A stretch of 64,000 bases of DNA. It comes from Candidatus Saccharimonadota bacterium (lineage in GTDB: Bacteria > Patescibacteriota > Saccharimonadia > Saccharimonadales > Saccharimonadaceae). Positions 8,405 to 49,756 of this stretch are shown here, piece by piece (within the stretch, counting starts at the first letter, position 1; each line of letters begins with the position of its first letter). Under the pieces are notes generated by a model that was not told where the DNA came from, ran no database searches, and was given only the letters and a program-made list of their open reading frames with translations. The translations under genes were made by a program, and so were the position numbers. The DNA lies in the NCBI GenBank assembly GCA_017432365.1, contig JAFRJG010000006.1:41750-105749 (forward strand), written 5' to 3'.

Positions 8405-8437
8405 GTTTTTTGTAGCGCGGACAAAATCCCCGAAAAA
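8405..8437 (+). repeat. dispersed 28-bp repeat, copy A (intergenic)
   Basis: The core reads TTTTTTGTAGCGCGGAC followed by AAAATCCCCGAAA. Closely similar copies lie at 18055, 21074 and 45074, all on this same strand. This copy is in the 129-bp gap between the ABC exporter and the secreted protein; apart from the repeat that gap shows only a weak promoter (TTGAAA...TATCCT) before 8513. Confidence 0.75.
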
Positions 8438-17568: not shown

Positions 17569-20500
17569 CTATCGGCTCAACAGCAGCTCAATAAACGCCC
17601 GAATTTCCTTCATTCCGCGACTCTTCTCCGCCTCAATAAACAACTCCTCATCATTCAAAAACTCAAGCGACGTCGCCTGCCGATACATCGCCTTGATAAT
17701 TTCCTTGAGTCGTTCCTCATCTTTTACATACCCCGCCTCGGTAAAATCGAGCGCCTTATCATAAACCCGCCCCTCCTCGTCCGGCGTCACAAACAAAATA
17801 TGCCCTCGCGTTACCTGATACTTCCGATACGTCGCCGAATTTTCCAGCAACAACTTATAAAACCCGAGCTGTAACGAATACTTATATAGCGAATTAACAC
17901 TCCCCCACCTCTCCTTATGATATTTCCCAGTTTTAAAGTCATAAATCTCAATCGTCTTCGCTTCCTCATCAATCTCGATATGGTCGAGCTTGCCCGTCGC
18001 CGGAACCCCGTCAATCTCAATATGCTCCCCCCGTAAATCAACTTCTGCTCGCGCGTTTGTAGCGCGGATAAAATCCCCGAAACTCTCTAAAGAAATCTTC
18101 AGCGCAACCTCTCCCTTCTCTAACAAACTCTTCCGCTCTCCCGGCTCCAGCTCCGCCCCCTCCGCCTCTTGGCGATACAACTTGAGCGCCTCTTCATCAG
18201 AAATCCCCTCCCGCGTCACTTTCTCAAACACCAAGTGAATCAAGTTCCCAAACACCATACTCTCCGTCGCCGGCGGTTGTGGCGCCCGTAAAATCCGATT
18301 CTGATAAAACTCGACCGGTCCCCCGTACGCGATATCAATAAAGCTCGTCAAATCGCTCGCCGTCAACTGATAATTTTCCATTCTCGCTCGCAGAATCGGC
18401 AACAACTCCGGCGTCCGTTTCGCATACCTCGCCCGCCAGCTCTTCCGCAAATCGACTTCCTTCCGCACCTCTTCCATGTCTTCATAATGTGTCACAACTT
18501 TCGCCCCCAACAACGGCGACATAACCTCTCCCTCCCCGTCTTCATACTCTTGTAAATAATCCAACCGTGCCGGACTTTTTCCCGAAAAATCCTTCAGGGA
18601 ATTGGTTAAAACCAACCCCCGCTTCGCCCGCGTTAACGCGACAAACAACAACCTAAGTCGCTCATCATCCGTCATTCCCGTATGCCGAATCTGTATCACA
18701 TTCTTCGGCAAACTCAACATATTATTATTCCCCTTCGCCTTCCCCCAGCTCAAATTATCTGTCGCCACCAAAAACACATGCTCATATTCCAGTCCCTTCG
18801 ACTTATGCGCCGTGACAATCTGCACCGCGTCCGCCGAATCTCGATATGGCGACGTGTTCGTAATCTCCGCCCCCGCTTCTTCATAATCCTTAACCGTCTC
18901 AATCAAGTCTTTCAGCCGCAGTCCGCCCGCCTTTTCCGCTCCTCGATGTCGAATCACCACCTCGCGCAATACTGCCAGATTTTCATACAACTCAAACGTC
19001 TCATAATCCCCCTGCTCCTGCGTATAGAACTCAACAAACCCCGACCGAAACTCCCGCTTCCCCCGTCTTAACGCCCCCTCTTTCGTTATTAAGTCCCCCG
19101 TCTCCTCGGTCTCCGCGCTCGCCGTCGCCTCCTTCAGCTCCACCGCCGCCGTCCCGACGAAATAATCCATCATCAACTCAAGCGACGTATCGAAACTCCG
19201 CATCGCAAGCGTCGCCAAGAACTCCCCTAGTTCCCGCAACTTCGGCGAATCCGCCTTCAATAAATAATCCAGTCCGACTTTATGGTCAGCTTTCGCCCGA
19301 TAAACCGCCGAAACCGCCTCCGCCGCCGGAATCTCAAAAAACGGAAAACTTAAAATCTCCAACAGCCGCGCCGACACGTTCCGTCCCTGGGATAAATCAT
19401 ATATAAACCGCGCCAGCGTTAAAATCTCCGCCAGTCTCGGGTCTTCAAGCAAGTTATCTTTCTTCTCATACGCAATGTTAATCCCCGCCCGCTCCTTGAG
19501 CCAGGGTAACAGCGGCGCGATATATTTATGCTTCGGCGTAATTATCGCAATCTCGCTCTGTCTCACTCCGCTTTTTATCAAGCGCTCAATCTCCCCCGCC
19601 ACAAATCGATATTCCTGGTCGCTCGTCAGAAACTCATGCCGTTCTATCGTCGCCCCCGCCCCCTTGAACGCCCTGAGTCGCTTTATCACTCCCTGCTTCT
19701 TCTCAAAACTGTCCTCAATCTGGTCTGCCACCTTCCGCGAAAAGTCTAAAATCTCTTGATTCGACCGATAATTCTCCTCAAGATTTACGACCTTCGCCTG
19801 ATAATACTGCTGAAACGACAACAAGTTCGACGCGTCCGCCCCCTGAAACTCAAAAATCGCTTGGTCGTCATCCCCGACCGCCATCACATTTGGTTTTTCA
19901 TAATCCGTCAACAACTTAATCAGCTCCGCCTGACTCGGATTCGTATCTTGAAACTCGTCCAATAAAATATACTGAAACCGCTCCGTCATCGTCAGCCGGA
20001 ACCCCGTATCCTTCTTCAAAATCAAAATCGCCTGCTCAATCATGTCCGAAAAATCGAACAACCCCTCGCCCTTCAACTTCTCGTCATATTTCTCCATAAT
20101 CCCCCCGAGGCTCTGCAATTTCTTATTCGCAACCCGGTCTTTGAGCCGAAAATGTCCCTCGTCGTCCTTCTCGAACGTCGCCTCTTTCCACCTCGAAAGC
20201 GGCGTTACCTTCGGCTTCTCTTTCTCCCCCTCCGCATCAATCAGCCGTTTCAGCTCCCGCGCTAAAACGTTTCCAACCGGCTCAATCTCCCCAACAATAT
20301 TCTCCCCCGACGTGAAACTAGCTAGAACCTCGAGTATCGGCATATAAACCGTCTCGACCGCCTCTTGAAACCTAAGTCGTTTTCCCGCCTGCTCTAAAAT
20401 CGGCGACGCCTTCCGCGAAATCTCCGCCGAATCTTTCGTGTTTCGCTCCGCAATCTTCTTCAAATCCTCTCCCGAAAGCCGCGCACTCTTCGCACTCCCA

Positions 20501-20928: not shown

Positions 20929-21784
20929 AAATCCTCCTTAAAACATCTGATAAAATCTCCACCTCTCGCGGTATAAAAATCCCCTCGCGCGCCAGCTCCT
21001 TCGCCGCAAACACTCCCTCAACCGTCGTCTTCCGGAGAAACGCCTTCGCACCCCCTCTGACCCCTGTTTTTCCGTTTTTTGTAGCGCGTAAGAAATCCCC
21101 GAAAAGATAGTTCCGACTTTCCCGACTCCCACAGGTCAACATCAAGTCCCCTCGCCCCGCCGCCTTCTCCACCGTCTCAACAAACCCCCCGTTATATAAC
21201 AACACGTCTTTCATCTCCCCAATCGTCGTCTCAATAAACTCCCGAAACTCTCGCTCCTTCGGCATCAGTCCCCTCCGCCCCGCTTCAATCGCATACACAT
21301 TTTTCAGCGCCCCGAGCAATCTCACCCCCCGAACATCTTCCGTCCGGTCAAAAATGACATTCGTGTTCCGAAAAATCACTTCCGCCAGCGTCTCCCCCGT
21401 TCCCCCCTCGGACGTTGCCGTTTCCGCCCCTTGACACGCCACCGTCAACATCGTCTTCCGCCCCTTGACAATCTCCTCCGCGAACCCCGGACCCGAAATA
21501 ATCTCATAATGCGAAAACTGTTCATAAATCCCCGGTTTTAGCAATCCCTTCGTCGCCACAATCAACGGCTTTCCCAGCCACTCCGCCGTAAACTTCCCAA
21601 GTAACTTCTCGACCGCCTCCGCCGGCGTCGCCAAAATCAGTATCTCCGCCGGTTTCACGACTGTCGTCAATCTCCGCTCAGGAAACTTATACGGGTCATA
21701 ATAAACAATCTCAAACCCTTTCTTCTCTAAAACTTTTCCAAGCGCCGCCCCATACGCTCCCGCGCCCAAAACTCCGATTTTCAC
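20915..21784 (-). CDS. gpsA: glycerol-3-phosphate dehydrogenase, NAD(P)+
   Basis: A 289-residue GpsA, shorter than the usual 330. The Rossmann loop is GVLGAGAYGAALGKVL at the N-terminus; VATKGL, ISGPGFAEEI and NVYAIEAG match substrate-site motifs, and LTCGSRESRNYLFG the C-terminal domain. It makes sn-glycerol-3-phosphate for lipids. The start is GTG 21784 after GGAGG. The segment FGDFLRATKNGKTGVRGG replaces the normal LGExLGxG stretch, and part of it is encoded by the 28-bp repeat. The helicase gene follows with a 14-base overlap. Confidence 0.9.
   Translation of the reverse strand: MKIGVLGAGAYGAALGKVLEKKGFEIVYYDPYKFPERRLTTVVKPAEILILATPAEAVEKLLGKFTAEWLGKPLIVATKGLLKPGIYEQFSHYEIISGPGFAEEIVKGRKTMLTVACQGAETATSEGGTGETLAEVIFRNTNVIFDRTEDVRGVRLLGALKNVYAIEAGRRGLMPKEREFREFIETTIGEMKDVLLYNGGFVETVEKAAGRGDLMLTCGSRESRNYLFGDFLRATKNGKTGVRGGAKAFLRKTTVEGVFAAKELAREGIFIPREVEILSDVLRRIYGVK
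21074..21106 (+). repeat. dispersed 28-bp repeat, copy C (inside gpsA)
   Basis: GTTTTTTGTAGCGCGTAAG followed by AAATCCCCGAAAAG on the plus strand, antisense to gpsA, translated as FGDFLRATKNG. Similarity to copy A extends about 20 bp further upstream (CCCCT...GTTTT). Confidence 0.72.
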
Positions 21785-21846: not shown

Positions 21847-22938
21847 ATGACCGTCTGGGACTCCCTGAAAAAACCGATTTTTTGTCTCGCCCCGATGGAA
21901 GGCGTCACCGACCGCGCCTTTCGCGGCGTCATTGCGGCTGCCGCCCGCCCCGACCTCTTTTTTACTGAGTTTACCAACGTCTCCTCTTTCGCCTCCGAAC
22001 AGGGAAGAACTAACGCCCTTAACCGCTTAAAAATCTCCGCCACTGACTCTCCAATCATCGCCCAAATCTGGGGAAAGAACCCTAACCATTTCGCCACTCT
22101 CGCGAGTAGCCTGAAATCCCTCGGTTTCTCCGGTATTGACCTCAACTTCGGTTGTCCCGACCGCCATGTCAACCGCGCCGGCGGTGGCGCCGCCATGATA
22201 AGAACCCCTGACCTCGCCATCGACTGTCTCCGTCGCGCAAAACTGAACTCAAACGGTCTCCCCGTCTCCATCAAAACCCGTCTCGGCTTCACCTACCTTG
22301 AAGAATATAAAGATTGGCTCCCGACCCTCCTCAAAGAACGCCCTGCCGCCCTTACCGTCCATCTCCGCACGCGAAAAGAAATGTCGAAAGTCCCCGCCCA
22401 CTTCGAACTTATCCCCGACCTCCTCGCCCTCCGCGAAACCTTCTCCCCCGAAACAAAACTCCTCATCAACGGCGACCTAAAATCTCGCGCCATGTGCCTC
22501 GACCTCTGGCAACAATACCCCTCTCTCGACGGCTTCATGCTTGGTCGCGCCATCTTCGACAACCCTTACCTCTTCTCGAAAGACAATCACGTCCCAACCA
22601 AAACCGAACTCTTTAATCTCCTTAATCTCCATTTAGATTTATACGAAAGCAACAATATCGAACCTTTAAAACACTATTTTAAGATTTATATCAAAGATTT
22701 TAACGGCGCGTCTGCTTTAAGGACAAAATTAATGGAATGCAAAGATGTCGAATCGATAAGATTAGTTTTGCGAGCGGGGAGACAGGACCGTTCTTGCCGG
22801 CGTACCGCAGCTTACGAGCGAGGTCCGGCGAGCGCGACCCCCGCAACGGCGGGCGGGCGCGACTCGCGTCCGGCAAAACGGACTGTCGACCGCAAGCGAG
22901 CCAATGCCCCTTTACTGAAATCAAAGAATCTGATATAA
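21847..22938 (+). CDS. dus: tRNA-dihydrouridine synthase, 3' end altered by a palindromic element
   Basis: A 363-residue FMN enzyme that reduces uridines in tRNA. APMEGVTDRAFRGV begins the TIM barrel, LNFGCPDRHVNRAGGGAAMI (about 98-117) holds the catalytic Cys, and SIKTRLGF and MLGRAIFDNP are FMN or phosphate contacts. Homology ends near DVESIRLVL. The last 55 residues (from RAGRQDRSCRR on) are Arg/Ala-rich and encoded by the folded repeat at 22796-22874, so the C-terminus is probably not native. The stop codon lies in the -10 element of the rplJ promoter. Confidence 0.9.
   Translation: MTVWDSLKKPIFCLAPMEGVTDRAFRGVIAAAARPDLFFTEFTNVSSFASEQGRTNALNRLKISATDSPIIAQIWGKNPNHFATLASSLKSLGFSGIDLNFGCPDRHVNRAGGGAAMIRTPDLAIDCLRRAKLNSNGLPVSIKTRLGFTYLEEYKDWLPTLLKERPAALTVHLRTRKEMSKVPAHFELIPDLLALRETFSPETKLLINGDLKSRAMCLDLWQQYPSLDGFMLGRAIFDNPYLFSKDNHVPTKTELFNLLNLHLDLYESNNIEPLKHYFKIYIKDFNGASALRTKLMECKDVESIRLVLRAGRQDRSCRRTAAYERGPASATPATAGGRDSRPAKRTVDRKRANAPLLKSKNLI
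22771..22901. repeat. large folded palindromic element, copy 1 (core 22796-22874)
   Basis: The 79-bp core is flanked by imperfect arms (ACAG...CCGTT on the left, AACGG...CTGT on the right) that extend the stem. The predicted fold is an outer stem, a small hairpin with loop TACG and a second hairpin tipped CCCGC-AACG-GCGGG. Copy 2 lies at 49640-49718 with five differences. This copy is translated as the dus tail. Confidence 0.85.
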
Positions 22939-22939
22939 T
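22911..22939 (+). promoter_or_regulatory. promoter of the rplJ-rplL operon
   Basis: TTTACT (22911-22916), 17-nt spacer, TATAAT (22934-22939). The predicted start near 22946 coincides with the first base of the L10 leader. Confidence 0.75.
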
Positions 22940-22946
22940 CTCAAAA

Positions 22947-23027
22947 GTTACCAAAGACAGCGACGGAGTAAAACTCTTAATCATGTCGCCGAGGAATCTC
23001 TGATTGTAAAATCCGCTTTCCGGTAAC
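22947..23027 (+). ncRNA. L10 ribosomal-protein leader (autoregulatory mRNA element)
   Basis: GTTACC (22947-22952) pairs with GGTAAC (23022-23027) to close the element. Inside, AAAGACAGCGACGGAG and GTCGCCGAGG match the conserved L10-leader segments that mimic the 23S rRNA site for the L10(L12)4 complex. Known L10 leaders repress rplJL when L10 is in excess; the same is inferred here. Confidence 0.8.
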
Positions 23028-44658: not shown

Positions 44659-45420
44659 ATGTCCGTCCCCCCTCTCGCTTATCAGACCAACCAAGCCGAG
44701 TTCTACGGTCGCCGCTTCTTCGTTACACCTGACGTGTTAATTCCTCGCCCCGAAACCGAAATGGCAATTGACGCCGTCCTCAATCTCGCCGGACGTCCAA
44801 TCCTCCCCGGCGTCAAACCCGGCGCCCGCCAACTCCCCGAACGCCCCCATATCCTCGACGTCGGCACTGGCTCCGGCGTCATCGCCATCACGCTCAAACT
44901 AGAACTACCAGAAGCAGAAATCCTCGCTACCGACCTTTCCAAAAAAGCTCTCCAAGTCGCTCAAACAAACGCCACACGACTCGGCGCCAACCTGAACTTT
45001 CTTCAAAGCGATTTACTCGCCTTTCTCGACCCCCCCGCTCCACTTTCCCAGAGGTCAGACCGCCCAACCGCCCCTTTTTGCAGCGCGGATGAAATCCCCG
45101 AAACTTTTGATAAAACTCCTGAGCCTTTTGACCTTATCGTCGCTAACTTGCCCTATGTCGATCAAACCTGGTCTTGGCTCGACTGTGACGCCCTAAGCGC
45201 CGAACCCGACCTCGCTCTTTATGCCGACGATAGCGGACTCTCTCTCATTTTCCGCCTGCTCACAGAAATCGCCGAAAAATCCGCCCTCGCCAAGGACGGC
45301 TTCCTCGTCCTTGAAGCCGACCCCTGTCAACATGAACGCCTCATCAACCGCGCCCGAACCCTCCGCTTCACCCTCCTCGAAACTCGCGGTTTCCAGCTCG
45401 TCTTCCAATTTACGCCATGA
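44659..45420 (+). CDS. prmC: release-factor glutamine methyltransferase with repeat insertion
   Basis: A 253-residue SAM methyltransferase. VTPDVLIPRPETE, LDVGTGSGVIAITL and DLIVANLPYVDQ identify PrmC/HemK. The active-site motif is NLPY instead of the usual NPPY. The N-terminal helical domain is very short. Between strand 4 (SDLLAFLDPP) and NLPY the protein has about 30 extra residues, of which APFCSADEIPET is encoded by the 28-bp repeat. It modifies RF1, the product of the previous gene. Confidence 0.9.
   Translation: MSVPPLAYQTNQAEFYGRRFFVTPDVLIPRPETEMAIDAVLNLAGRPILPGVKPGARQLPERPHILDVGTGSGVIAITLKLELPEAEILATDLSKKALQVAQTNATRLGANLNFLQSDLLAFLDPPAPLSQRSDRPTAPFCSADEIPETFDKTPEPFDLIVANLPYVDQTWSWLDCDALSAEPDLALYADDSGLSLIFRLLTEIAEKSALAKDGFLVLEADPCQHERLINRARTLRFTLLETRGFQLVFQFTP
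45074..45104 (+). repeat. dispersed 28-bp repeat, copy D (inside prmC)
   Basis: CTTTTTGCAGCGCGGATG followed by AAATCCCCGAAAC, sense to prmC and on the same DNA strand as the other three copies. Confidence 0.75.
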
Positions 45421-49159: not shown

Positions 49160-49618
49160 ATGAAATACAACGAACTTCTCGTCGAAAAGAACACTCGCCC
49201 CTCTCGCAAGGGTCGCGGTATCTCTGCTGGTCAGGGAAAAACCGCCGGTCGCGGTACGAAGGGTCAAAAGGCTCGCACGGGTCACTCGAAAATGCCGGCT
49301 GGCTTCATGGGCGGTCAACGCGCCATCATGCAAGCCATTCCGAAACTTAAAGGTTTCAAATCCCTTCATGAAAAAGCCGAAATCGTCTATACCGACACTT
49401 TGAACGAGCTCAAGGGTAGTGTCGACAACTTCGTCCTCGCCGAAAAGAGTTTCATCTCCTCCCCGTTCGTCAAGGTTAAACTTCTCTCGCGTGGCGACTT
49501 GAAGTCTAAAATCGACTTAGAAACCCAATTCGCCTCAAAATCCGCCATTGAAGCTCTGAAAAAGACCGGCGGCTCTTTCGAAAAAGTTCCTATTCCTCAA
49601 CGTAAAAAAACTGACTAG
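49160..49618 (+). CDS. rplO: 50S ribosomal protein L15
   Basis: A 152-residue protein: RKGRGISAGQGKTAGRGTKG and KARTGHSKMPAGFMGGQRAI are the conserved Gly-rich start. AGGAGG is in the rpsE tail. It directly follows rpsE, where most bacteria have rpmD (L30). The stop codon is the first part of palindromic element copy 2. Confidence 0.95.
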   Translation: MKYNELLVEKNTRPSRKGRGISAGQGKTAGRGTKGQKARTGHSKMPAGFMGGQRAIMQAIPKLKGFKSLHEKAEIVYTDTLNELKGSVDNFVLAEKSFISSPFVKVKLLSRGDLKSKIDLETQFASKSAIEALKKTGGSFEKVPIPQRKKTD

Positions 49619-49742
49619 CGGAGTCAAATGTCTCTTCTCGTCGGCGTACCGCAGCTTACGAGCGAGGTCCGGCAAGCGCGACCCCCGCGACGGCGGGCGG
49701 GCGCGACTTGCGTCCGACGAAAGAGACTTTGACGCAAGCTAG
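49615..49742. repeat. large folded palindromic element, copy 2 (core 49640-49718), likely also a terminator
   Basis: The 79-bp core is extended by arms CTAGC...GTCAAA.GTCTCTT (left) and AAGAGAC.TTTGAC...GCTAG (right), about 30 bp of imperfect stem. TTTTTT follows, so transcripts of rplF-rplO can end here. The outer arms differ in sequence from copy 1 but are again complementary. Confidence 0.88.
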
Positions 49743-49756
49743 TTTTTTGTTATAAT
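49729..49756 (+). promoter_or_regulatory. promoter of secY, embedded in the element's right arm
   Basis: TTGACG (49729-49734) in the right arm, 16-nt spacer holding the T-tract, TATAAT (49751-49756). Confidence 0.75.

Follow-up and report, generated by a model that had tools for sequence, protein, structure and literature searches.

Among dispersed hairpins, REP/BIME elements are associated with Y1 (RAYT) transposases and are recognized in a strand-specific, single-stranded form, and integron attC sites are likewise strand-specific folded hairpins that contain extrahelical bases and whose stem sequence is free. Several other systems combine palindromes with dispersal or with a position inside genes. 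REPs measure 20-40 bp (PMC3733652). The Rickettsia palindromic elements (RPE), of which ten families are listed, are ~150 bp long and lie in frame in unrelated genes (PMC10969869); according to the remarks devoted to them in PMC6649704, such repeats lose their identity as repeats over time. The same source describes perfect inverted repeats in coding genes of Nematomorpha mitochondria and suggests arm correction by template switching (PMC6649704), a process which, between repeat arms, is known to produce both coupled changes and inversion of the spacer (PMC8604942; PMC8794818).

Here we analyse a family of palindromic elements represented twice in the window, a 64,000-nucleotide stretch of DNA from a Candidatus Saccharimonadota bacterium. 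The element consists of a Y-shaped core of ~71 nt on a stem of ~25 bp, ~120 nt altogether, and its copies are characterized by a common core, site-specific arms, core inversions and retained reading frames.

Anatomy of the two window copies

A first-pass annotation of this DNA had pointed to a 79-bp folded element in two copies differing at five positions. Re-comparison of the 79-mers (22796-22874 versus 49640-49718) showed the count to be exact, with mismatches precisely at positions 2, 35, 50, 70 and 78. The changes at 2 and 78, and at 35 and 70, are coupled within base pairs, and the fifth falls in a loop, as had been claimed; also borne out is the further change just outside the 79-mer, where one copy has a T-A pair and the other a C-G pair. 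Hairpin B carries a bulged C in both copies. The same Y shape on a longer outer stem is predicted for the two copies (Table 1). In shuffle tests, the window copies with their arms reach z values of -3.4 and -5.7 but the bare 79-mers only -1.0 and -1.5, indicating that the significance of the fold is carried by the arms.

Copy 1 is in the frame of dus, and the ORF indeed continues through the element, past its matches to Dus families. The Pfam Dus match stops at residue 302 of 363, and the best NCBIfam match, DusB, which is below the cut-off, at residue 309 of 363 (~nt 22773); the element begins where these matches end, so that copy 1 supplies the tail of the predicted protein. Copy 2 was correctly placed before secY, lying between an L15-family ORF and SecY; on its 3' side there are a T6 run and a TATAAT that resembles a promoter element. 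Judged by sequence, its lower stem and T6 would resemble an intrinsic terminator of the host with the element in its loop; a simple terminator scan, which admits loops of 3-8 only, did not flag copy 2.

Above the gathering score, Rfam matches in the window comprise only two tRNAs and an L10 leader, all outside the element. The leader (RF00557, 45.4 bits, 22933-23011) is located just past copy 1, without overlap, and upstream of the L10 ORF at 23072. The window also contains a short repeat unrelated to the hairpin element, TTTGNAGCGCGNNNNAAATCCCCGAAA, in four exact copies on the + strand (8409-8435, 18056-18082, 21078-21104 and 45077-45103; 0 expected).

Table 1. Features of the two element copies in the window
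Feature	Position	Strand	Basis or description
dus ORF, reads through copy 1	21847..22938	+	
Copy 1, 5' arm	22775..22799	+	pairs with 22871-22895; length from 168-copy profile
Copy 1, Y-shaped core	22800..22870	+	match to covariance model R1, 94.0 bits
Copy 1, hairpin A	22801..22827	+	1x1 mismatch, 3x2 internal loop, UACG loop
Copy 1, hairpin B	22828..22867	+	A/G mismatch, bulged C, bulged A, AACG loop
Copy 1, 3' arm	22871..22895	+	fold and 168-copy arm profile
Copy 2, lower stem, 5' side (ACTAGC)	49614..49619	+	pairs with GCTAGT; sequence and fold
Copy 2, 5' arm	49619..49643	+	fold and 168-copy arm profile
Copy 2, Y-shaped core	49644..49714	+	match to covariance model R1, 93.5 bits
Copy 2, hairpin A	49645..49671	+	fold and covariation
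Copy 2, hairpin B	49672..49711	+	fold and covariation
Copy 2, 3' arm	49715..49739	+	fold and 168-copy arm profile
Copy 2, lower stem, 3' side, then T6	49738..49748	+	sequence and fold

Covariation confirms that the two copies belong to a genuine family of folded elements in which compensatory changes are widespread. In an alignment of 78 distinct cores, pairing holds in 92.1% of the cells, compared with at most 45.6% in slid controls, and both sides have changed at 22 of the 24 core pairs. A second set from other loci behaves similarly (91.7% paired; slid controls at most 50.0%; both-sided change at 21 of 24 pairs), both alignments (A4 and A5) having been fitted to the model, and a hand-cut alignment of nine cores gives 93.9% paired cells, at most 47.4% when slid, with both-sided change at 12 of 24 pairs. 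A 3x2 internal loop and a tetraloop, UACG or other, characterize hairpin A. In the window copies, as in most others inspected, hairpin B is marked by a mismatch and by two bulged bases, C and A.

Distribution of the family and its arms

At E ≤ 0.01, a covariance model (R1) built from nine cores yields 866 matches among 174 genomes of the genus, a lower bound with at most 28 candidates scored per genome. The element is present in 146 of these genomes, and in 93 of the 110 good ones; R1 finds 8 copies in the window's own genome (G000) and up to 26 in others. By blastn, five copies are recovered in the window's genome, one of them split in two pieces around an insert, but the element is found in only 8 of 60 relatives, so that the covariance model is required. 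In one G000 copy (L005:1155-1300), hairpin A holds an additional GC-rich, self-folding insert, as if one element resided within another. Elsewhere, copies are paired as inverted tandems spaced by 53-74 nt (L309:1765-1978, L346:3866-4058 and L348:4686-4888).

Beyond the genus, 96 genomes of a class-wide sample of 392 match at E ≤ 0.001 under strict filters: 80 belong to the genus and 16 to two genera elsewhere in its Saccharibacteria family. In this search 3 of 152 genera are positive, with no match in the other 149. An exact-pattern search of named genomes yielded at least 116 stretches; all 80 among the matches listed are from Candidatus Saccharibacteria, 59 of the 80 have titles naming a ruminant gut sample, and, to judge by title, the matching genomes appear to be metagenome bins. 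The same exact pattern has 0 matches in the IMG/VR viral contigs, so that no link to viruses was seen in that scan. In Rfam 15, no element copy in the window or in 20 loci scores above the gathering cut-off, and a relaxed threshold returns only matches with E ≥ 5 for the element. Among the open-licence papers listed in a literature search, none named, by title or abstract start, palindromic elements in Saccharibacteria or other candidate-phyla bacteria. The first-pass annotation had named no described family, in line with the lack of an Rfam match, and had named as support many further Saccharibacteria copies with covarying pairs, which the model indeed recovered. We also looked for its two counter-signs, a lack of more copies and changes that ignore the pairing; neither refuted the family.

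The arms were compared in 168 copies, six of which are weak matches. The fraction of matched arm positions is 0.80-0.92 at nt 8-24 and 0.40-0.85 at nt 1-7, and falls beyond nt 24, to 0.52 at nt 27 and 0.40 at nt 30. The 95% null is exceeded by 165 of the 168 arm pairs, although none exceeds the top of 1000 null scores (31). The description of outer arms that differ yet remain complementary thus extends to the whole family, each site having its own arm sequence. Twelve cores were found more than once, forming 46 identical-core pairs, and the outer arms of these pairs have a mean identity of 0.37, against 0.30 for random arms. In G110, for instance, one identical core occurs in four copies with four distinct arm pairs. 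Arm identity reaches 0.7 in only two of the 46 pairs: one joins window copy 1 and the argS copy in its own genome, and the other comes from a site that two sister genomes have in common. Given that two copies in G000 share arms, some copies may move with their arms.

The base pattern of the arms is weak (T-rich at 5-9, A-rich at 15-17, purine at 24-25), and the arm ends hold 0.0-0.31 bits of information at positions 18-26, with more sharing in the G000-like subgroup. The arm ends share little sequence, and conserved terminal inverted repeats of the kind that define MITEs were not found. In the test for target-site duplication, common words of at least 6 occur in 12% of cases versus 7% in the null. 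Gapped arm identity separates the classes poorly (shared sites 0.63 in the same and 0.56 in inverted orientation, paralogues 0.57, random 0.51).

Host genes and the strand of the fold

Nearly half of the copies, 82 of 168, are read through in one open frame, which had to extend for 200 nt or more to either side of the element; 43 of these are in sense and 39 in antisense orientation. The rest include 16 copies with open flanks but no single frame, 66 others and 4 that are too short. Twelve of the 16 frame-broken copies were examined (11 and window copy 2), of which six have a Pfam family on both sides; all six, copy 2 included, are located between two different genes. The host genes include valS, argS, der, truB, leuS, gatA, trmD and mnmA, identified by NCBIfam above cut-off, as well as lysS, a NifS-like desulfurase, rlmD, ileS, gyrA, a PcrA-like helicase and pepN, for which the best match is below cut-off or the protein partial. 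Highly conserved genes are thus among those interrupted, and the in-gene copies are likely translated.

Other insertions were encountered in some of these genes. In the gatA linker (L051-L079), many genomes have different in-frame insertions, with peptides such as DSRLAPSRPSSRGSGAHSAPVVADGLE, which possibly represent sister palindrome families. In TrmD homologues (P0003-P0021 and others), many recurring insert peptides lie between LARQFAG and HYIILCPHYEG.

The first-pass annotation read the compensatory changes as selection on a fold, in RNA or in DNA. The compensatory change stands, but selection on an RNA fold need not follow from it, because G-U is rare in the core, about half of the in-gene copies are antisense, the wobble bias tracks the strand of the element, cores occur inverted at orthologous sites and template switching is known to yield coupled changes as well; a DNA hairpin fits better. 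That the element is a functional structured RNA, a small RNA or a cis element selected for its fold and spread because it is useful or mobile, is in our view unlikely, even if it is the best of the alternatives. It would account for the strong covariation and for the conserved internal loops and bulges, and it draws on the wobbles in the arms, where G-U exceeds A-C on one strand, as expected of a folded molecule: on the + strand of the element the G-U:A-C ratio is 98:24 (156/161 copies), against a null of 1.18 from the composition of unrelated arms. Pairing restricted to Watson-Crick pairs was accordingly rejected, the arms carrying G-U with a strand bias.

The core speaks differently. Counted over 20 of the core's 24 pairs, G-U accounts for 16 of 2793 pairs (0.57%), compared with 83 of 944 (8.8%) for the 43 tRNAs that these loci are predicted to encode, i.e. 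it is 15 times rarer; over all 24 pairs of alignment A4, thus including the four that the former figure omits, it amounts to 35 of 1654 (2.1%), a difference of ~4 times, and two basal pairs of hairpin A account for 24 of these 35. Nor does a match in Rfam support a functional RNA. Moreover, 39 of the 82 in-gene copies are antisense, so that the mRNA carries the other strand, and it is in these copies that the bias is strongest, at 26:1, versus 20:8 (p 0.087) in sense in-gene copies and 52:15 elsewhere, the p-values being too small because the copies are not independent. These figures speak against selection having acted on the fold of the mRNA; the wobble-tolerant fold appears to be that of the element's + strand, whatever the host gene does. 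Single-stranded DNA fits all copies, whereas for RNA the antisense ones would have to be transcribed against the direction of the gene. Taken together, we consider it probable, though well short of certain, that the copies are dispersed Y-shaped palindromic DNA elements which spread and persist as strand-specific single-stranded DNA hairpins and do not serve as functional RNA.

Shared sites, mode of spread and known systems

Defined by flank similarity, 29 sites are common to at least two genomes and harbour 91 of the 168 copies (28 sites and 86 copies without the weak matches). Inverted pairs occur in 14 of the 29 sites (13 of 28 without the weak matches). For instance, at the trmD site G102 and its sister G183 have similar arms but an inverted core, and a second core inversion distinguishes G157 from G078. 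At another site, L173 and L368 carry an identical core in opposite orientation, although their flanks are only 85-87% alike, and L356 and L368, also at one site, have arms alike but different cores. A 2x2 table of concerted evolution was not clean.

These shared sites speak for a different account, which we regard as improbable, marginally more so than a functional RNA, namely, that the sites are old, immobile and inherited, and that the cores have been homogenized within each genome by gene conversion. Identical cores with different arms would then be no sign of transposition, and the alike arms but different cores of L356 and L368 would be explained. However, certain sites hold the element in hardly any genomes, such as that in ileS of G065, for which an element-free query matches 147 of 170 genomes at E ≤ 1e-50, G065 not being among them; and the core of L173 and L368 is identical despite the divergence of the flanks.

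At some sites, the arms can be compared with element-free relatives. In valS of G105 (L024), the arrangement is YKVVSKAAKSSSEE-core-SEEDGFAASITV; G126, without the element, has YKLVDGFATSLIV and is 108 nt shorter. The 3' arm of this copy resembles the host sequence, and the linker varies among other relatives. In trmD of G102 (L233), the gene-side 5' arm encodes ARDFAS, within the ARxFA motif of element-free homologues; as this element is antisense, the native arm is the element's own 3' arm. Since at both sites one arm matches the coding sequence of relatives, the other is an inverted copy of it. On this reading the element's 3' arm is native at these two sites, too few for a rule; rlmD is ambiguous (homologue P0125 suggests the 5' arm, others the 3' arm) and was set aside, and gatA is ambiguous too. 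Determining the exact insert length from the gatA, der and ileS linkers was given up because they are too variable. No clean empty site was found in very close genome pairs, the nearest case being a G099 site with an element where the sisters G159 and G085 have an ordinary terminator hairpin. In two further genomes (G174 and G175; L273 and L274), a differently folded palindrome occupies a gene site at which the sister G164 has the element.

How single-stranded DNA hairpins of this kind might spread can be sketched tentatively. A selfish hairpin may build its own arms: the core would be placed at a host 3' end, fold back and prime a copy of ~25 nt of the flank, so that a hairpin of arm, core and arm results. 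Later, the complementarity of the arms is probably maintained by template switching from one to the other, which would also flip the core; in-gene copies would persist only if the frame is kept, under selection for frame, and copies at gene ends may serve as terminators. We regard such building of arms by the element as possible but doubtful; if it is true, each insertion makes a custom palindrome, and mobility leaves an inverted, rather than direct, copy of the target. An origin of the arms by template switching alone is weakened by their sharp 25-nt edge.

No mobility enzyme was found. A Y1 transposase is present in 8 of 170 genomes and absent from G000, and a reverse transcriptase in 95 of 170 genomes of the genus (e.g. 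G000:C10:1553-2155); both were rejected as engines of mobility. The reverse transcriptase seems not to be needed, given that G171 has 16 copies and no match to it. As for a group II intron or another retroelement, Rfam gives no intron match above threshold, and the reverse transcriptase is limited to those 95 genomes.

Two further explanations fare worse. If splicing or ribosome bypass took the element out of the mRNA, the gene product would be normal, which would explain how highly conserved genes tolerate interruption; bypass elements are known in yeast mitochondria, as noted in PMC6649704. Such removal needs no open frame. Even so, 82 copies have retained one, and the decidable frame exceptions among the 12 of 16 copies examined are, six out of six, between two genes, which makes this explanation very improbable and also sets the elements apart from translational bypass (byp) elements. 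The notion that the elements are simply duplicated intrinsic terminators, suggested by the T6 run after the copy 2 hairpin and by the replacement of a terminator hairpin at the G099 site, is scarcely credible, as about half of the copies are inside ORFs, in either orientation, and it is contradicted for the in-gene copies.

The palindromic repeats of these very small bacteria number several hundred, and about half of those sampled are in frame within genes, highly conserved ones included. They provide a clean test of whether compensatory changes prove RNA function, as the signal tracks the strand of the element, not the mRNA. Should the arms prove to be copies of target sequence, the elements would represent an undescribed route of DNA movement and a source of new protein linkers.

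Among known systems, REP/BIME are similar in being dispersed hairpins; unlike REP/RAYT, however, the present elements occur in a genus in which 162 of 170 genomes have no Y1 transposase match. They differ from integron attC sites in having no conserved boxes at the arm ends, where information is low. Template switching between inverted repeats (PMC8604942; PMC8794818) likewise homogenizes arms and inverts the spacer in genes; but it is a mutation process, not an element, and by itself would yield neither a fixed arm length nor dispersal. The palindromes of Nematomorpha are plain inverted repeats in which both arms encode conserved protein, and the passages of PMC6649704 that describe them mention no common core. 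RPE are alike in being short dispersed palindromes in frame inside host genes, as are 82 of the 168 copies here. Unlike RPE, the elements described here have a common middle, site-specific arms of sharp length and a core that can be inverted at the same site; their arms stay complementary, and they belong to a different phylum, distinctions drawn from the published descriptions of RPE. Thus, the elements are best classed as a form of coding palindrome other than RPE, their nearest counterparts in kind being RPE and the nematomorph palindromes.
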